Shown in pieces: positions 9,599 through 49,030 of a DNA stretch of 64,000 bases. The stretch is from Bacteroidia bacterium (GTDB lineage: Bacteria; Bacteroidota; Bacteroidia; B-17B0; Aurantibacillaceae). A program made the position numbers and the translations under genes. The notes below the pieces were generated by a model. The model saw nothing but the letters and a program-made list of their open reading frames with translations, was not told where the DNA came from and made no database searches. Within the stretch, counting starts at the first letter, position 1, and the number at the start of each line of letters is the position of its first letter. The DNA is taken from the NCBI GenBank assembly GCA_016787445.1, contig JAEUTQ010000066.1:1-64000 (forward strand), read 5' to 3'.

Positions 9599-10738
9599 AT
9601 GAGTGATTTAATTTATTTCGATAATAACGCAACTACAAAAGTAGATGATAAGGTAGTAGAAGCCATTTTGCCTTTTTTTTCGCAGAAATATGGGAATGCT
9701 TCCAGTAAATTACATGCTTACGGTTGGGAAGCAGAGGCAGCAGTTGATAAAGCCCGCGAGCAAGTGGCAGACCTAATCGGCGCGGAACCCAATGAAATTG
9801 TATTTACGAGCGGAGCTACTGAAGCCATTAATATGGCCTTATGTGGCATTTACAGAACCTATAAATCAAAAGGTAAACATATCATTACTGTTAAGTCTGA
9901 ACACAAAGCAGTTTTAGATACTTGTCGGTTTTTAGAGGAGTATGAAGGCGCTGAGATAACTTATTTGAATGTAGATAAGGAAGGTTTGGTTTCGCCGGAA
10001 GAATTACGGAGGAGCATTCGTAAGGATACCATACTTATTTGTATTATGGCCGCCAATAATGAAACAGGAGTTATTCAGCCTATAGAAGAAATTGGTCAGT
10101 TGGCACGTGAACATAAAATTTTGTTTTTCAGCGATACCACTCAATACGCAGGAAAAATGATGCTGGATGTGAACGAAACACCCATAGATATTTTGTGTGT
10201 GAGTGCGCATAAAATGCACGGACCAAAAGGAGTTGGGGCAATTTACTTAAAACGAAAAAATCCTCGGGTGAATTGCTTGCCTTTCATGTACGGTGGCGGA
10301 CAAGAATCGGGGAGAAGAGCGGGTACATTAAATGTTCCGGGAATAGTAGGCTTGGGCTTGTGTTCGCAAATGGCAAAGAGTGAGATTTGGGAAACAAACA
10401 CACATGTTTCCAAGTTAAGAGCTTATCTCGAACATCAACTTCTTGAAATCCCGGGATTGAGAATAAACGGAAGTACACGTACCCGTTTATATAATACCAG
10501 TAATATTACTTTTCCGGAAAGTGTTAATATAAAAGAGCTTTTAAAGAGTTATGCTTTTTCAAGTGGTTCGGCTTGTACTTCAGGATCGGGCGAGCTATCA
10601 CATGTATTAAAAGCGATGGGATTAAATGATGAAGAAATTAAAAATTCCTATCGTTTTAGTTTCAGTAAATACAACACCATTGATGAGGTTAAAAAAGTTA
10701 TAAATAATTTGTTTACAATTAATAAATTTTTATTTTAG
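9599..10738 (+). CDS. Cysteine desulfurase (IscS/NifS family)
   Basis: 379 residues. PLP-dependent enzyme that moves sulfur from cysteine to iron-sulfur assembly and thio-cofactor pathways. Visible hallmarks are DNNATT near the start, H102 (SEHKAV), the PLP lysine K205 in SAHKMHGPKG, the GGGQESGRRAGT segment and the catalytic cysteine C326 in SGSACTSGSG. The loop around C326 is of the class I (IscS/NifS) type rather than SufS. No iscU or regulator gene is adjacent, so it could serve FeS assembly or tRNA thiolation. It is divergent from the EamA gene. Confidence 0.92.
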   Translation: MSDLIYFDNNATTKVDDKVVEAILPFFSQKYGNASSKLHAYGWEAEAAVDKAREQVADLIGAEPNEIVFTSGATEAINMALCGIYRTYKSKGKHIITVKSEHKAVLDTCRFLEEYEGAEITYLNVDKEGLVSPEELRRSIRKDTILICIMAANNETGVIQPIEEIGQLAREHKILFFSDTTQYAGKMMLDVNETPIDILCVSAHKMHGPKGVGAIYLKRKNPRVNCLPFMYGGGQESGRRAGTLNVPGIVGLGLCSQMAKSEIWETNTHVSKLRAYLEHQLLEIPGLRINGSTRTRLYNTSNITFPESVNIKELLKSYAFSSGSACTSGSGELSHVLKAMGLNDEEIKNSYRFSFSKYNTIDEVKKVINNLFTINKFLF

Positions 10739-10751
10739 TTAAAAAAATATT

Positions 10752-12503
10752 ATGAAAAAAATCTTAATTATAGCATTATTGCTTTGTGGGGCTTACACTA
10801 AAGCTCAAACTTATGGACAAGCTGTATTTGGACATACAGGATATAAATCATGTACGGGAAGCAGAACTAGCATCTTTACGAGTGGTTTTTTACGTGGAGG
10901 TTATAAGTCACCTGTTACAATTGGAACAGATAACTTCTATATAGACAAAGCTAGTGCAAATGGAGCGCTTGGTGGTACTGGAGTTTTTCGAGGTGGTTAT
11001 CAAATACAAACAAGTAATTCATCTTGTTCAGGAGCAACTTCACAAAATATTAATTGTGGAGGAATATCTGTTATTGAGGCAAATATTTCAGGTACTGAAT
11101 GGTATGCAGTAGCTGGATCTCATGATAACGGTGTTTTTTATTCAACGCTTAATTCAACAGGAATGCCGGTTGTATCAGTCGAATACCGTTTTCCGAGTCC
11201 AAATACTAATACCCCAAGTAAACCTCTAATTGCAAGATTAAGTAATGGGGATTTTATTATTACAGGACAGGGTTATAGCGATAATATGTTTGCTCTTCGT
11301 ATTAATCCTAATGGCAATCTTGTATGGTCTAGTTTTTATAGTATAAATACAACTTCTCCACCTTTTACTCCTAAAGAATTAATAATAAGCCCATATAATG
11401 GTAATCCTATAATTGTAGGTGATTGTCTTCTTCCCAATTCTTATTCAAGGAGTAATGATGGTTTTTTTATGGAGCTTGATGTTAATAATGGTAACGTTAA
11501 CATATTTAAAACCTATGGTAATGTTTTAAATGGATGTCAGTATTTTGCTAGTATATGTATTGCTAATTCAAATTATGGAGGTACAAATGGGTTTATTGTT
11601 GCAGGACAAAGTGACCCGATTTTAGGTTCAGGATATAAATGGTTTTTAAAACTAGATCCAAGCGGTAATGTTGTTTGGAATTATTTATATCAACCTACAA
11701 CGCCCGCAAACGCACAGCCTGTTGTTGGCGTCATTGAGCGTTTAAATACTTCGTCAAACTACGAAATATATGGTGTTGCTGGTGCAGCTTTAGGTTCAGT
11801 GGTTTTGAAACTAAATGATAATGGCCTTCCCTTTTCATCCGGTAATAATGAATTTTTATACAATCCAAGTTCTACAAAGCTTTCTGATCCTTGTGCTATT
11901 ACCTACATTAATTCTGGTCCTTCTAGTGTTGGATTACACATATACGGAACCGAGGATCAAGTACTAGGTAATAATTATTTTGTTAAAGCATATTTTAATG
12001 GTCAATCAGGGTGTAATCAAACCTTACAAACAATTAGCGCATATGAGTCAGGGCCAAATTCTGTAATCTCACCTGTAATTACTAAAGCGGGCTCACTTGT
12101 TCAATGTAATACATTTAGTTTGAGATTTTTCTCACGAACTGTTTCCAGTAGTTGGCTATGTAATGCCTCATCGATTCCTGCCGGAAGTAATGCTAGATTT
12201 GGTAATGACGAAGAAAGTGTTCAGTTAAGTCCAATTGATTCTGAGGTTAGTTTATACCCAAACCCAACCTCTAATACCACTAAACTAAAGTTTTTCTCGG
12301 AAATAATTTCACCAATAGAGATTGACATATACGATTATACTGGAAAGCATATAAAAACAGTAGACCGATTTAATGGAAATCAATCTATTCAATATGAAGT
12401 TGATATCGATTTTAAAGAGTTAGGAGTAGTTTCTGGTGTTTATTTTATAAAAGTTAATAATTATGAGGATATTAAGACATTAAAAGTTATATACAATAAA
12501 TAA
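10752..12503 (+). CDS. Secreted T9SS cargo protein, unknown function
   Basis: 583 residues with a clear signal peptide (MKKILIIALLLCGAYTKAQ). The body is rich in Gly, Ser, Asn and aromatic residues with loose repeats of about 60-70 residues (GDFIITGQGYS, GNPIIVGDC, NGFIVAGQSDP, YEIYGVAGAAL), suggesting a beta-propeller. The last 80 residues are a type A T9SS sorting domain: SLYPNPTSN, a middle strand IDIYDYTGKHIKT and the closing GVYFIKVNN...LKVIYNK. It is followed by a terminator. No catalytic motif seen. Confidence 0.8.
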   Translation: MKKILIIALLLCGAYTKAQTYGQAVFGHTGYKSCTGSRTSIFTSGFLRGGYKSPVTIGTDNFYIDKASANGALGGTGVFRGGYQIQTSNSSCSGATSQNINCGGISVIEANISGTEWYAVAGSHDNGVFYSTLNSTGMPVVSVEYRFPSPNTNTPSKPLIARLSNGDFIITGQGYSDNMFALRINPNGNLVWSSFYSINTTSPPFTPKELIISPYNGNPIIVGDCLLPNSYSRSNDGFFMELDVNNGNVNIFKTYGNVLNGCQYFASICIANSNYGGTNGFIVAGQSDPILGSGYKWFLKLDPSGNVVWNYLYQPTTPANAQPVVGVIERLNTSSNYEIYGVAGAALGSVVLKLNDNGLPFSSGNNEFLYNPSSTKLSDPCAITYINSGPSSVGLHIYGTEDQVLGNNYFVKAYFNGQSGCNQTLQTISAYESGPNSVISPVITKAGSLVQCNTFSLRFFSRTVSSSWLCNASSIPAGSNARFGNDEESVQLSPIDSEVSLYPNPTSNTTKLKFFSEIISPIEIDIYDYTGKHIKTVDRFNGNQSIQYEVDIDFKELGVVSGVYFIKVNNYEDIKTLKVIYNK

Positions 12504-43800: not shown

Positions 43801-44604
43801 ATGAATTTTTTTCAGGGATTCATAAAAGGGTTTTCCAACGCATTCAAATCATTTGATGTATTATTTAATAAGGGCCTTTGGCCCTTTTTGCTTTATCCCT
43901 TAGTCATTTGGGTATTAACCTGGCTATTGAGCTTAGCGGGAATAACAGTGCTTGCCGATTGGTTTGCTAACTGGACTGCAAAAGCATTGGAGTTTGATAA
44001 AATACCGGAAAGCGGACATTGGCTTTCATTTGCCAAACCATTTTTAACCGGGTACTTCAGTGTATTTGTGTTTTGGGTGGTGAAAATTTTGTTTTGGTTT
44101 ATCTCCGGAACATTTTCAAAGTACGTTTTATTGATTGTTCTTTCACCTTTGTTTGCGTTGTTATCGGAGATGGCGGATGAAAAACTCACCGGACAAAAAT
44201 TTCCATTTTCATTTCCTCAATTAATGAAAGACATTGTTCGCGGTACCATGATAAGCTTGCGTAACATGATGATTGAGTTTGGTATTATTATTGGCTGCTT
44301 TATTGTGACCTTATTTTTTCCGCCATTAGTGATTGCAACCACACCGTTTTTATTATTGGTGAGTTGGTATTTTACAGGCTTCTCCATGATGGATTACAAT
44401 ACCGAGCGTTACCGTTACAACGTGAGCGACAGTGTGCGCTTTATTCGCGCTAATAAGGGATTAGTAATAGGGATTGGTTGCGTTTATTGGTTGTTCATGA
44501 GTATACCAACATTTGCCGGAGATATCATTGGATTAATGTTTGGTCCGGCAATTGCTTCTTTAGGTGCGACAATAAGTTTTCTGGAACTCAAAAACAGTAA
44601 ATAA
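43801..44604 (+). CDS. EI24/CysZ-like membrane protein
   Basis: 267 residues with about six hydrophobic helices. It begins NFFQGFIKGFSNAFKSFDVLF and contains LLIVLSPLFALLSEMADEKLTGQKFPF and SFMMDYNTERYR-like FSMMDYNTERYRYNV, characteristic of the EI24-domain (DUF540/CysZ) family. CysZ is a sulfate channel in proteobacteria; substrates in Bacteroidota are unproven. Last gene of the operon; a cassette array on the other strand begins just after its stop. Confidence 0.83.
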   Translation: MNFFQGFIKGFSNAFKSFDVLFNKGLWPFLLYPLVIWVLTWLLSLAGITVLADWFANWTAKALEFDKIPESGHWLSFAKPFLTGYFSVFVFWVVKILFWFISGTFSKYVLLIVLSPLFALLSEMADEKLTGQKFPFSFPQLMKDIVRGTMISLRNMMIEFGIIIGCFIVTLFFPPLVIATTPFLLLVSWYFTGFSMMDYNTERYRYNVSDSVRFIRANKGLVIGIGCVYWLFMSIPTFAGDIIGLMFGPAIASLGATISFLELKNSK

Positions 44605-44651
44605 TTTTATTGAGTATTTATATCTGACGATTAGCCGGTGTTATGAGGCGT

Positions 44652-45221
44652 TTATTTTGGGACAGATCGTTTCGCCTTTGAGAAGTCAAAATGCCCATAA
44701 TTTTGTTTCATTTTTTTGTCCGCTTCATCCTTTTCGTCAATGAAAGAAATTGGCTCCTCTTTAAACTGCCAGGTACCAACGTAAATTAAGCTAGAAGGAG
44801 AAACGGAAAATCGAAACCATTGCGAAGAATTAGCTGTCGAGTCGGCAGATGTATTAGTCCGTGTTATAGTTTGAGTTTGAGTTGTTGCTATGAAACCATT
44901 TGTCGTAGTCCAGATATATTCTATTAGTTCGTAATTGCCTGGTCTAATGTAGAAACAGAAGTCGCCTCTTTTGGTAGTTTTCATCCGTTTAATCTCCATC
45001 GTAGAAACAGAATTCGATTCCAAATTACGAATTTTGACAAATTGAAGTTTTCCACCTGTCGAAAAGCCACCTCTGGGAATGAATGTGCCATAGATAACAG
45101 ACATGTATTCCGATATATTTTCGAAACCGTCATATGGTCGAAGGCTGCTAGAAAACTCATTTTGTCCGAGTGATACAAATGATAAAAAAATTAGGAACGT
45201 TATATACGTTGCTTTTGTCAT
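44652..45221 (-). CDS. Cassette gene 1: exported protein, unknown function
   Basis: 189 residues from the ATG at 45221. A longer frame reaches 45248, but its start lies outside the cassette boundary at 45240. Signal peptide MTKATYITFLIFLSFVSLGQ. The mature part contains SVIYGTFIPRGGFSTGGK, DFCFYIRPGNYELIEY and SSLIYVGTWQFKEEP, a pattern that looks like a small beta-rich surface protein; I do not recognise a family. Divergent in origin from its plus-strand neighbours judging by its position in the array. Confidence 0.65.
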   Translation of the reverse strand: MTKATYITFLIFLSFVSLGQNEFSSSLRPYDGFENISEYMSVIYGTFIPRGGFSTGGKLQFVKIRNLESNSVSTMEIKRMKTTKRGDFCFYIRPGNYELIEYIWTTTNGFIATTQTQTITRTNTSADSTANSSQWFRFSVSPSSLIYVGTWQFKEEPISFIDEKDEADKKMKQNYGHFDFSKAKRSVPK

Positions 45222-45234
45222 AGAATAAATGCCG

Positions 45235-45421
45235 GATAACGGTTTCACGGTTGGCGATCGGCGGGCTTTGAAACACTCAACCGTCTACACCCTAAAATGT
45301 TTATTTAAAGATACCAAACAAAATTAGCGGCCGCAAATAAAAAATTCCGCTTGCGGGCAACTAACTCTGCGCGCCGCGATGACCTTCAATCCGCCCGCTG
45401 GTCGCCACACCGTGTGTTAGC
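45235..45421 (-). repeat. attC-like long inverted repeat between cassettes 2 and 1
   Basis: Outer arms 45235-45266 and 45393-45421 are imperfectly complementary: GATAAC outer box, CACGGTT/CCGTG, GGCGATC/GTCGCC and GCGGGC/GCCCGC. About 126 bp lie between the arms, with smaller palindromes (GCGGCCGC at about 45328). The outermost boxes do not pair perfectly (GATAAC against GTTAGC), as expected after cassette shuffling. Confidence 0.6.
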
Positions 45422-45431
45422 AGTAGTTTTG

Positions 45432-45968
45432 TCAATTGGAGTCTTGAATTTCTAACTTAACAATGTCATTACCCGCAAGTATTCTTTTTTCATAATAGTT
45501 TTGGTAATACTTTATTCTAACGTGTAAATTAGGTCGAATTGCACCTCCGTGAGAAGCAGCATTGTGATAACCTTGAATAGTTAACGAATAATCAGAAAAT
45601 TCAAAATGCACCCCTCCGACATCAAAGGATTCCTGTTTGTGTCCTTCTTCAGGCATTGGAATATAATTTTCTACCGTTCCTTCTACAGTTTTGTAATTGC
45701 CATTTCGCATTGCGATGTGTAAATCAGAGTTAAGTATTATAGTCATTGAAATTATAATACTTAAAGAAATAGCAATAAAGAGTCCGCCGATAATTAATTT
45801 TCTTATTGCTTTTGTTTTACCAGAAAATATGTCTTTATACTGTTTGTCTTTTCGGAAAAATGTAGCAATAATGATTAATCCAACGAATAAGAAAGGTGTA
45901 GATATAAGCCTAACCGAGTCAAGATAGGAACTGCTTTCGGTTATGTCATATACAGTTTTGTACGTCAT
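45432..45968 (-). CDS. Cassette gene 2: two-helix membrane protein, unknown function
   Basis: 178 residues from the ATG at 45968 (MTYKTVYDITES), which lies 15 bp inside the cassette boundary; a frame eight codons longer crosses it. Two membrane helices (LISTPFLFVGLIIIATFF and LIIGGLFIAISLSIIISMTIIL) precede a soluble domain with YKTVEGTVENYIPMPEEGHKQESF, FSDYSLTIQGYHNAASHGG and LHVRIKYY. I recall similar short proteins scattered in unrelated bacteria, but no function. Confidence 0.65.
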   Translation of the reverse strand: MTYKTVYDITESSSYLDSVRLISTPFLFVGLIIIATFFRKDKQYKDIFSGKTKAIRKLIIGGLFIAISLSIIISMTIILNSDLHIAMRNGNYKTVEGTVENYIPMPEEGHKQESFDVGGVHFEFSDYSLTIQGYHNAASHGGAIRPNLHVRIKYYQNYYEKRILAGNDIVKLEIQDSN

Positions 45969-45977
45969 TAAATTACT

Positions 45978-46107
45978 GCTAACGTTTTGCAAGCAGACGT
46001 CCGGCGGGCATTACGGAGCCTCCTTTGTCTGTTTACCGAAACGGTAATTAAATATACAAATTTTATTTTACGCAATTCGGCCCGCTGGTCGTTTGCTTGC
46101 TGTTAGC
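45978..46107 (-). repeat. attC-like long inverted repeat between cassettes 3 and 2
   Basis: Arms 45978-46009 and 46080-46107 begin and end with GCTAAC and GTTAGC and pair through TTGCAAGCA/TGCTTGC and GCGGGC/GCCCGC. The right arm shares CCCGCTGGTCG with the other site. Total length 130 bp, within the attC size range. Confidence 0.62.
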
Positions 46108-46154
46108 TGTCTGCAAAGGCGCCCACAGTTTAAATATAGATTAGGTGTCCGCCG

Positions 46155-46658
46155 TTAATAATATGTAAAGCCTAAGTCTACGCAAAGTTTTGTAAGTCGT
46201 TTTCGTTTTGGCTCGGTAAATTCAAGGTGAGAATTTGGCCAATTATTTGGACTGCTTAAGACTCTGTAATAAATAAAAAAGTCAGTAGAGCCTTTTGCAA
46301 TGCTAAAATTTGCAACCATTTTGCCCTTGAAATAATAAACGACCCCAATGTATGGATACCAAGATTCTTTAGAAGGCTGTTTGTCTGATTTTGTAGTTTC
46401 CCATAAAAATGCATGCAATGTGTCGATTTGTGCTGGAGAAAGTTGTTTTTGTTTGTTTATTATTTTAGAATAAAGCTTGTCATTCAGGACGATTAGTCCC
46501 TGGATATTTTTTTTGCATTCATAAGCAATGATAGTGTCATATTTGAAGTCTTTGGATACAAAAGGAGGATTAATTTTTTTTGTCTGGCCATAAGTAGCAG
46601 AAGTCAGTCCGATATAGGTCAGAAGCTGTAGAATGATATTTATTTCTCGTTTCGTCAT
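46155..46658 (-). CDS. Cassette gene 3: exported protein, unknown function
   Basis: 167 residues. Signal peptide-like N-terminus (REINIILQLLTYIGLTSATYGQ). The mature domain has DTIIAYECKKNIQGLIVLND, a helix with KQLSPAQIDTLHAFLWET, and PYIGVVYYFKGKMVANFSIA. Family not recognised. The ATG is 33 bp after the GTT boundary at 46691, and the gene is followed by an attC-like repeat starting near 46122. Confidence 0.65.
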   Translation of the reverse strand: MTKREINIILQLLTYIGLTSATYGQTKKINPPFVSKDFKYDTIIAYECKKNIQGLIVLNDKLYSKIINKQKQLSPAQIDTLHAFLWETTKSDKQPSKESWYPYIGVVYYFKGKMVANFSIAKGSTDFFIYYRVLSSPNNWPNSHLEFTEPKRKRLTKLCVDLGFTYY

Positions 46659-46713
46659 TTCGGGGATCTGTCCGCCTTTGTTGCAGCTAACTACCCTATA
46701 GGAGCCATATTTT

Positions 46714-46748
46714 CACCCTAAGCTTGTAATTCTTGCAAGATTGGGGTG
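46714..46748. other. Hairpin at the right flank of the cassette array
   Basis: CACCCTAAGCTTG (46714-46726) and CAAGATTGGGGTG (46736-46748) can form a stem with two mismatches. No T-run follows on either strand, so it is not a typical terminator. Its role, perhaps a worn cassette site, is unclear. Confidence 0.35.
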
Positions 46749-46800
46749 ATTTTGTAATTCCTATCTGGTTAAGCTAATTTAATAAAATTTCTTACCAATA

Positions 46801-46848: not shown

Positions 46849-48237
46849 TTACAAATGTATCACTTCACCGTATGCTGCTGCAGCAGCTTCCATGATTGCT
46901 TCGCTCATGGTAGGGTGAGGGTGAACTGTTTTAATTAATTCGTGACCTGTTGTTTCTAATTTACGAACGGCTACACATTCTGCTACCATTTCAGTAACGT
47001 TAGCACCAATCATGTGCGCGCCTAATAACTCACCGTATTTAGCGTCAAAAATCAATTTGATAAATCCATCGGATGCGCCGGCAGCTTTTGCTTTACCGGA
47101 TGCAGAGAATGGAAACTTACCAACCTTCACTGTATAGCCTGCTTCTTTTGCTTTTTTCTCTGTAAATCCAACAGAGGCAATTTCCGGCTGGCAATACGTA
47201 CAACCCGGAATGTTATTGTAATCAATAGGCTCTACATGCATGCCCTTAATTTTCTCAACGCAAGTAATACCTTCTGCACTGGCAACGTGTGCTAATGCCT
47301 GACCAGGTACGCAGTCGCCAATGGCGTAGTACCCCGGTACGTTAGTCGCGTAAAATTTATCAACTAATATTTTTCCTTTATCCGTTTTAATTCCTGTTTC
47401 TTCTAAACCTAATCCTTCAATGTTAGCAGCAATACCAACCGCAGATAATACGATTTCAGCATCTAACGTAACATTACCGGTTTTGGTTTTTACGTTTACT
47501 TTGCAATCTGTTCCTTTCGTATCTACACTCTCAACAGAAGCTTCTGTCATGATTTCGATACCAACCTTCTTGAATGATTTCTCTAATTGCTTTGATACTT
47601 CTTCATCTTCAACCGGAACAATGTTCGGCATGAATTCAACGATGGTTACTTTAGTTCCCATAGTGGCATAGAAGTAAGCAAACTCAACACCAATAGCGCC
47701 TGATCCAACAACAACTAAACTCTTAGGCTGTTTTGGTAAGCTCATCGCTTCGCGGTAACCAATAATTTTCTTACCATCTTGTGGTAAATTAGGTAACTGA
47801 CGAGAGCGTGCTCCTGTTGCAATGATAATGTGTTTACCATCGTATACAGTTACTTTTCCATCGGCACCTTTAACTTCCACCTTTTTACCCGGCTTTACTT
47901 TAGCCGTGCCCATGATCACATCAATTTTATTTTTCTTCATCAAAAACTGAATGCCTTTACTCATACCGTCAGCCACATCGCGGCTACGTTTAATAACAGC
48001 ACCAAAATCAGCTTTGATATTATCAGCACTAATTCCGTAATCTTTTGCGTGATTTAAATATTCGAAAACTTGTGCACTTTTTAATAATGCTTTCGTTGGA
48101 ATACATCCCCAGTTTAAACAAATACCACCTAAATTTTCTTTTTCAATAATGGCGGTTTTAAAACCTAATTGTGAAGCGCGAATGGCAGTAACATATCCGC
48201 CCGGACCGCTTCCTATAACAATAATATCGTAGTTCAT
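46849..48237 (-). CDS. lpdA: Dihydrolipoyl dehydrogenase
   Basis: 462 residues. FAD enzyme that reoxidises dihydrolipoamide in the pyruvate and 2-oxoglutarate dehydrogenase complexes and the glycine cleavage system. Seen: FAD motif IGSGPGGYVTAIRASQLG, the redox disulfide C40/C45 in GGICLNWGCIPTKALL, NAD motif VVGSGAIGVEFAYFYATMG, GYYAIGDCVPGQALAHVA and the C-terminal HPHPTMSEA with catalytic His. The partner E1/E2 genes are not in the window. Confidence 0.96.
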   Translation of the reverse strand: MNYDIIVIGSGPGGYVTAIRASQLGFKTAIIEKENLGGICLNWGCIPTKALLKSAQVFEYLNHAKDYGISADNIKADFGAVIKRSRDVADGMSKGIQFLMKKNKIDVIMGTAKVKPGKKVEVKGADGKVTVYDGKHIIIATGARSRQLPNLPQDGKKIIGYREAMSLPKQPKSLVVVGSGAIGVEFAYFYATMGTKVTIVEFMPNIVPVEDEEVSKQLEKSFKKVGIEIMTEASVESVDTKGTDCKVNVKTKTGNVTLDAEIVLSAVGIAANIEGLGLEETGIKTDKGKILVDKFYATNVPGYYAIGDCVPGQALAHVASAEGITCVEKIKGMHVEPIDYNNIPGCTYCQPEIASVGFTEKKAKEAGYTVKVGKFPFSASGKAKAAGASDGFIKLIFDAKYGELLGAHMIGANVTEMVAECVAVRKLETTGHELIKTVHPHPTMSEAIMEAAAAAYGEVIHL

Positions 48238-48361: not shown

Positions 48362-48446
48362 CGTCATTGCGAGGAGGGACGACGAAGCAATCCTTATTTG
48401 TAGAGATTGCTTCGGTCGAGGCGAAAAGCTCGACCTCGCAATGACG
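48362..48446. repeat. CGTCATTGCGAGG-type palindromic repeat
   Basis: CGTCATTGCGAGG (48362-48374) pairs with CCTCGCAATGACG (48434-48446), and inner GAAGCAATC (48384-48392) with GATTGCTTC (48405-48413). This repeat type is known as dispersed intergenic elements in many bacterial genomes. Confidence 0.8.
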
Positions 48447-48460
48447 GAAAAAGAAAAAAA

Positions 48461-48529
48461 GATTCCTCCCTACGGTCGGAATGACGAATGGATTTAAACT
48501 GTCATGTCGAGCGCAGTCGAGACATCTTT
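48461..48529. repeat. REP-like unit, copy 1
   Basis: Starts GATTCCTCCCTACGG and ends TGTCGAGCGCAGTCGAGA-CATCTTT. Two more copies lie at 48754-48822 and 48900-48965 with a few differences (C or T in the palindrome centre, variable GGATTTAAA or CACATCGAA in the middle). Confidence 0.8.
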
Positions 48530-48711
48530 ATTTCAACACAGAGATGCAGAGTCTGAGAGGCCAAGGATATTATTTATGGCCTACAAAACTTAAACATTTC
48601 TTATTATATGTTATGTGTTTAATGTTTAATGAAGAGGTAATGCTCTCCATCGCGAGCTGTGCCTCGCGACATATAACACGAAATAATAAATGAAAAAAGA
48701 GCCCCGAATTA

Positions 48712-48822
48712 TATTCCGCGAAAGTCTTCGCTATCCGCGGAAAAAGAAAAAAAGATTCCTCCCTACGGTCGGAATGACGAATCACATCGAATGTCATGTC
48801 GAGCGTAGTCGAGACATCTTTT
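48712..48822. repeat. Composite repeat: CCGCG unit plus REP-like unit, copy 2
   Basis: ATTCCGCGAAAGTCTTCGCT with a closing TATCCGCGG and an A/G-rich run (48712-48753) is followed by the GATTCCTCCCTACGG unit (48754-48822). The same order recurs at 48856-48965. Confidence 0.78.
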
Positions 48823-48855
48823 TAGCCACGAATTACACGAATAAACACGAATGAG

Positions 48856-48965
48856 ATTCCGCGAAAATCTGCGCTATCCGCGGGAAAAGAAAAAGAACAG
48901 ATTCCTCCCTACGGTCGGAATGACGAATGGATTTAAAGTGTCATGTCGAGCGTAGTCGAGACATT
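48856..48965. repeat. Composite repeat: CCGCG unit plus REP-like unit, copy 3
   Basis: Second occurrence of the CCGCG unit (48856-48899, with AATCTGCGCT instead of AGTCTTCGCT) and third of the GATTCCTCCCTACGG unit (48900-48965). It is preceded by CCACGAATTACACGAATAAA (48827-48846). Confidence 0.78.
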
Positions 48966-49030
48966 GTAATGATATTTATTTAGTTCTCGACTACGCTCGA
49001 ACTGACAGGAAACGCTCGAACTGACAGGAA
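48939..49030. repeat. Large hairpin and 19-bp tandem repeat after tsaD
   Basis: 48939-48961 and 48985-49007 are inverted copies of the GTCGAGCGTAGTCGAG palindrome, 21 of 23 bases complementary, 23 bases apart. A 19-bp unit beginning ACGCTCGAACTGACAGG is repeated exactly in tandem at 48993-49011 and 49012-49030. The tsaD stop is 1 bp further on, so the hairpin is at the 3' end of its mRNA and may end or protect it. Confidence 0.75.

Follow-up and report, generated by a model that had tools for sequence, protein, structure and literature searches.

A probable integron-type cassette array in a Bacteroidota genome, with attC-like sites linked to an Xer-like recombinase

Three cassettes between two core genes

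The window, that is, the whole stretch of 64,000 nucleotides of Bacteroidota DNA that was analysed, contains an inserted segment (44587-46796) between two convergent core genes, an EI24-like gene (43801-44604) and lpdA (46849-48237). The minus strand from 46792 to about 44620 holds three single-gene cassettes, headed by an attI-like site and accompanied by two complete attC-like sites and a truncated one. The cassette genes are minus-strand open reading frames whose ATG codons lie 33, 15 and 19 bp past the GTTA boundaries at 46691, 45983 and 45240, in agreement with a preliminary description of three one-strand, single-gene cassettes with the ATG 15-33 bp from a GTT. Cassette 1 (45983-46690, minus strand, 708 bp) runs from G|TTA 46691 to G|TTA 45983, and its break at GTTA is consistent with the boundary profiles of related sites; its gene (46155-46658, minus) encodes a protein of 167 aa with a hydrophobic N-terminal stretch and without a known family. 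Cassette 2 (45240-45982, minus) extends from G|TTA 45983 to G|TTA 45240, and the product of its gene (45432-45968, minus), of about 178 aa, is by eye a membrane protein, also without a known family. The gene of cassette 3 (44652-45221, minus) encodes about 189 aa with a signal-peptide-like start and a weak, sub-cut-off Pfam match to a NOMO transthyretin-like family. No Pfam or NCBIfam family is matched above cut-off by any of the three proteins, which had indeed been described as being of unknown function.

The inverted repeats that had been reported between the cassettes are complete in two cases and reduced to a left half in the third. Both complete repeats contain the box CCCGCTGGTCG and have TAAC and GTTA at opposite ends. 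Site B is of a short type (45974-46111, minus, 138 bp; TAAC 46105, GTTA 45983), while site A is of a long type (45231-45425, minus, 195 bp; TAAC 45419, GTTA 45240) and has the promoter-like sequence TATCTTTA inside it. The third site was recognized by eye from its left half (CTCATAACACCGGC..., 44620-44647, minus, TAAC at 44643); it is cut off beside the next chromosomal gene and its right half is missing. The exact box CCCGCTGGTCG occurs twice in the whole 3.77-Mb genome, where the wider site family has at least 22 members. An independent covariance model, R3, was trained on 16 sites, all of them from other genomes and hence outside the window, and it scores site A at 105.3 bits (E 1.3e-20) and site B at 86.5 bits (E 1.2e-16), E-values of this kind being rough. 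Over the 64 kb, its matches are sites A and B alone, with the next hit at E 1.3 and no hit at the truncated third site. Because a model free of window sequences finds just these two, chance is excluded as an explanation for them. In folding calculations, site B is more stable as bottom than as top strand (-30.2 versus -24.5 kcal/mol; z -5.8 and -3.4); site A, which is also part of alignment A1 (see below), was folded too. Searches against Rfam gave no match for the attC-like sites.

At the head of the array, a site overlooked by the preliminary description resembles an attI that has no integrase gene (46688-46792, minus) and ends in TATAGGGTAGTTA. Its start matches 21 of 21 bp in BLASTN (E 5e-5) with positions 11251-11271 of L063. 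The matched stretch starts with the final stop-codon base of the recombinase that this genome encodes on another contig (C74). In addition, the attI core pattern TATANNNNAGTTAN6A has its single window match here (46681-46700, minus), with 0.23 matches expected. Ungapped comparison over 90 nt with other attI sites does not rise above shuffles, and the assignment is thus based on the stop-codon match, the core motif and the position at the array head, not on whole-length similarity. Since the 21-bp match and the TATAGGGTAGTTA end are found at the head of an array, the locus looks like an attI with its cassettes from which the integrase gene is missing, and such a gene probably once preceded this site.

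Comparison with relatives from the genus indicates that the three genes are not fixed, as other DNA or almost nothing stands at this point in them. In G052, whose flanks are about 94% identical, homology ends at 44586 and restarts at 46797, with 8.6 kb of other genes in between. There are only about 265 bp at the insertion point in G055, and other genes in G053, G057 and G058. No attC-like sites were found at this point in the genus relatives (L172-L176, L184), so that among those compared the array lies at the lpdA/EI24 site in its own genome only. The junction is a variable spot in the genus (window 44587-46796, L172-L176), and in G052 it carries a partial duplicate of the lpdA 3′ end.

Properties of the attC-like sites and their cassettes

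The stems of the sites show compensatory change. In the MAFFT alignment A1, 8 of 16 stem pairs have changed on both sides (score 0.449, versus 0.155 when shuffled). All 16 pairs covary in an alignment of 150 sites, which was fitted to the model, with 94% of cells paired and a score of 0.731 versus 0.190. The covariation signal is lost in slid controls. The ends of the sites are also well defined, with TAAC in 163 and GTTA in 156 of 170. Between similar sites, identity is high inside and falls to about 0.3 from TAAC outward and from four bases into GTTA; the exception is a nearly invariant A at +10 of GTTA, which is common to all three window cassettes. Compared with the RYYYAAC and GTTRRRY of classical cores, AAC and GTT are retained and RRRY is often lost (e.g., GTTAGCA, GTTATCC).

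The strand opposite to the genes, or bottom strand, folds more stably in 135 of 160 sites (p 2e-19), and it is this folded strand that probably serves as recombination substrate. A promoter-like TAnnTTTR box is present on the cassette strand in 115 sites and on the opposite strand in 20, about 23 being expected; a promoter inside the sites may be active.

Consecutive site pairs delimit 122 cassettes with a median body of 847 bp. The largest open reading frame shares the strand of the site in 117 of them and lies on the opposite strand in 3. The 114 cassette proteins are diverse, most Pfam families being seen once. They include type IX secretion sorting domains (7) and acetyltransferases, together with a PemK toxin, a CAP12 TIR protein and some restriction-modification enzymes.

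Distribution of the site family

In the order, a gapped 15-base pattern taken from the window matches at 19 places, spread over 10 of 87 genomes. In the alignment of these matches, TAAC, GACCAGCGGGC, CCCGCCG and GTTA are invariant. With the covariance model R1, sites were recovered in 81 of the 87 genomes, 22 of them in the window's own genome and some in long arrays. A broader model, R2, built on 150 sites, is positive for 132 of the 392 Bacteroidota genomes sampled and for 81 of 179 genera, at most six candidates being scored per genome; both R1 and R2 were trained on sites of this same family. R2 found no sites in 20 control genomes from other phyla, which were reached through named loci, and 2 to 12 sites each in six genomes from Bacteroidota, which include Algoriphagus ornithinivorans DSM 15282 and Flavobacterium aciduliphilum DSM 25663. 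The genomes are mostly drafts or metagenome-assembled, and contigs often break off at attC-like repeats.

The window array represents one copy of a large system of integron type, found widely across Bacteroidota. Integrons had been said to be seldom described in this lineage. This is right for the literature, where one complete integron has been reported in Bacteroidetes (PMC9024848), but the variant described here is common in the phylum.

The recombinase and its attI

The preliminary description also found no visible integrase. This holds for the locus, but elsewhere the genome does have one. Contig C74 encodes an intact tyrosine recombinase of 377 residues (10118-11251, plus strand), with an attI and three sites behind it on its strand before the contig ends. 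Among curated families it fits NF040815 best (XerA-like; 224 bits, cut-off 220). Against TIGR02249, the integron integrase model, it scores 210 bits where the cut-off is 265, and model positions 178-240 are unmatched. Because this model responds to every Xer gene, only matches over the cut-off were counted as IntI. By this measure, the suggested search for IntI found none in the own genome, and one in the 87 genomes of the order. The latter (G043 contig C26; L029 1501-2508), with 443 bits to TIGR02249, was set aside as a possible contaminant, because its contig is short and the genome is 6% contaminated.

The additional domain of IntI is regarded as defining and as necessary for integron recombination (PMC9668308, PMC8138268). 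The corresponding segment has 99 or 100 residues in eight IntI proteins versus 57 in the C74 recombinase, and about 57 to 66 in most Xer-like proteins. The catalytic positions that are expected in such enzymes (R, K, H, R, H and Y) do not vary among 17 members of the recombinase family. An extra N-terminal domain of about 90 residues is present in many members of the family. In quick trees, IntI forms one group (support 100) and the family falls outside it, with other Bacteroidota recombinases; a single clade of IntI and the family is not rejected (p 0.37). The best fold matches of a recombinase model are VchIntIA (2a3v) and XerA, but they were left unused for family placement because the predicted C-terminus is poor.

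Several lines of evidence link this enzyme to the sites. In the phylum sample, the recombinase profile matches 116 genomes, 76 of which also have sites (odds ratio 7.5, p 2e-17); in another 56 genomes with sites, no recombinase reaches the threshold. Within the order, where sites are close to a recombinase with the N-terminal domain, they lie 3′ of the gene and on the same strand, and no sites occur near the other Xer-like genes of the window's genome. Of the 31 nearest recombinase-site pairs within 20 kb, 22 have the site 3′ on the same strand and 7 are divergent. A divergent integrase and array is the usual arrangement of classical integrons. Where it was found here (G399, G282, G413, G105, G124, G455, G093), the recombinases are mostly of about 300 residues and lack the N-terminal domain. 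In some loci (L067, L077, L082, L191, L210), there is an extra gene, ORF6N-like in several, between recombinase and array, and in L079, L200 and L204 no site was recognized within several kb of the recombinase.

An attI core, TATANNNN[AC]GTTA, is present in 28 of 39 loci at a median of 98 bp after the recombinase stop codon, with 0.4 expected. In pairs of attI with similar upstream DNA, identity is at background right after GTTA; in G035, for instance, two attI agree at 95% of positions upstream and at 38% downstream. Many contigs break off no more than about 400 bp from the recombinase, and one (L213) ends exactly at the attI GTTA, which is expected if first cassettes vary in the population. 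A complete recombinase is also found on Chryseobacterium plasmids (L244 9007-17709, L245). As four attC-like sites lie downstream of it in L244, the system can be plasmid-borne.

Resistance-gene junctions on plasmids

The system shares cassettes with clinical plasmids, where truncated relatives of the recombinase precede resistance genes; all copies on the resistance plasmids examined are truncated. In Klebsiella plasmids of the IncC and IncU types (L246 4890-6763, L249, L250), such a relative is followed by an attI core and then by blaVEB, the cassette behind the core being blaVEB-3. The start of this cassette, GTTAGCGGTAATTT, is found behind this attI, behind attI1 and behind the attC of aadA1. 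Across these three unrelated upstream contexts, 60 of 60 bases are identical downstream and 11 to 20 of 60 upstream. The attC that blaVEB has in class 1 integrons is weakly recognized by R2 and R3 (28.2 and 21.5 bits), while in the Klebsiella plasmids with the recombinase the gene has lost its own attC. The 135-bp repeated elements that have been described around blaVEB (PMC3668210) are of a suggestive length.

Similarly, the "xerD" that stands before tet(X3) on Acinetobacter plasmids (L247 3929-6050, L248, L251, L252) is a truncated member of the family. It is followed by attI-like DNA and by tet(X3) as the first cassette, with the start GTTATGTGCCATTTTT. The attC after tet(X3) is incomplete, apparently consisting of the left half of such a site. 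In Empedobacter falsenii, GTTATGTGCCATTTTT begins behind different DNA (13 of 60 bases), while 59 of 60 bases agree past GTTA; tet(X) is followed there by an R2 site. The xerD-tet(X3) stretch is at least 99% identical in 49 records; it has been noted earlier in texts that offer no cassette-system explanation (PMC7758954, PMC7494873). The xerD-tet(X3)-res-ISCR2 unit (PMC7758954) thus shares with the Bacteroidota system a recombinase relative, an attI-like site and tet(X3) in first position, and differs in its truncated integrase, its incomplete attC and its carriage with ISCR2 or IS26. The blaVEB cassette is common to the Bacteroidota system and to class 1 integrons, although the latter are its usual home. 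Cassettes of tet(X) and blaVEB may have been transferred out of Bacteroidota.

Interpretation

The reading that best accounts for these observations, and which is very probably correct as far as sequences can tell, is that the window carries a short integron-type array that lacks its own integrase gene and consists of an attI, three cassettes and two complete attC-like sites, and that this array belongs to a Bacteroidota family that works with an Xer-like recombinase. The cassette and attC logic of the preliminary description is borne out by covarying, sharp-ended hairpins, single same-strand genes, an attI, and presence at this site in this genome only among the genus relatives compared. Its assignment to an integron-type (CALIN) array stands as regards the type, but the array may not be a classical CALIN, as the associated integrase lacks the domain defining IntI. 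By its sequences, the system appears to work like an integron, and it is not classical by the IntI criterion.

In this type of system, the enzyme would be an Xer-like tyrosine recombinase that lacks the IntI insert and in many cases has an additional domain at its N-terminus. It would join the folded bottom strand of an attC-like hairpin with the attI located about 98 bp behind its own gene. Exchange at G|TTA would then allow single-gene circles to be inserted and excised, and a cassette may be expressed from the promoter-like box within the attC-like site before it. Sequence support covers the sites, their covariation and strand bias, the cassette structure, the linkage to the recombinase, the attI, and the sharp GTTA junctions; this particular recombinase probably performs the cassette reaction. 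The wider proposal is of a phylum-wide Bacteroidota integron with its own Xer-type integrase, capture through single-stranded hairpins and promoters within the sites, which has fed tet(X) and blaVEB to the integrons and plasmids of pathogens. It goes further and is probable, with less assurance than the reading of the window itself.

There are other ways to read the array. It could be a fragment of a classical integron, a CALIN with ordinary attC that came from Proteobacteria and is served by an IntI elsewhere. The overall logic would be the same, and the models of Bacteroidota sites do recognize the class 1 blaVEB attC, if weakly (both scores above), so that cassettes pass between the two integron worlds. 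Nevertheless, this origin is very unlikely given that no IntI exceeds the cut-off in the window's genome and just one does so in the order, that the sites are linked to a different recombinase, and that R2 sites are absent from the non-Bacteroidota controls with IntI-type genes. Non-autonomous transposable elements or MITE-like repeats that are intergenic by chance would also yield many copies of imperfect inverted repeats of 130-200 bp with conserved ends. They would hardly alternate with single same-strand genes (117 to 3), keep a single orientation relative to one recombinase gene and undergo compensatory changes in their stems; moreover, the unit that moves is the gene between the repeats, as for tet(X) and blaVEB, with breaks at GTTA. 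Such an explanation is very improbable, and the same can be said of pdif-type modules, in which genes between 28-bp Xer sites are moved by the host XerC/XerD. The recombinase is Xer-like, and pdif modules on Acinetobacter plasmids are generally known to carry resistance genes, but the boundaries seen here are hairpins of about 100-200 bp with TAAC and GTTA ends instead of 11-6-11 sites, a dedicated recombinase lies beside the arrays, and the other Xer-like genes of the genome have no sites nearby.

The integron-type system of Bacteroidota resembles sedentary chromosomal and class 1 integrons in its single-gene cassettes, very diverse cassette genes and long arrays. With classical integrons it shares folded attC-like sites with a bottom-strand bias in folding stability, an attI beside the integrase, and junctions at G|TT. 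Unlike them, it has a promoter-like box in most sites and arrays placed for the most part on the 3′ side of the integrase, on its strand; its core also appears to differ, with GTTANNNNNNA in place of a strict GTTRRRY. Its integrase differs from IntI in lacking the additional domain (57 versus 99 residues) and in often having an extra N-terminal one. The integrase also resembles XerA/Xer (NF040815), which is the best curated family match and has a catalytic domain of equal size; in contrast to these proteins, the family is linked to cassette arrays and attI, and many members bear the N-terminal domain of about 90 residues.

Integrons have been reported as nearly absent from Bacteroidota and as dependent on an IntI with a special domain. 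If the present reading is true, cassettes can be captured without the additional domain of IntI, and a large pool of cassettes is added that current surveys seem to miss. It would also explain the puzzling "xerD" before tet(X3) and a possible source of the blaVEB cassette. A search of full-text literature, which covered few subscription papers, found no description of such a Bacteroidota system, so that priority is uncertain. Exact positions for experiments are provided by the attI, the G|TTA junctions and the catalytic tyrosine.

Elsewhere in the window (48445-48968), there are several intergenic copies of an interspersed repeat, CTCCCTACGGTCGGAATGACGAAT, with CGAGCGTAGTCGAGA palindromes.
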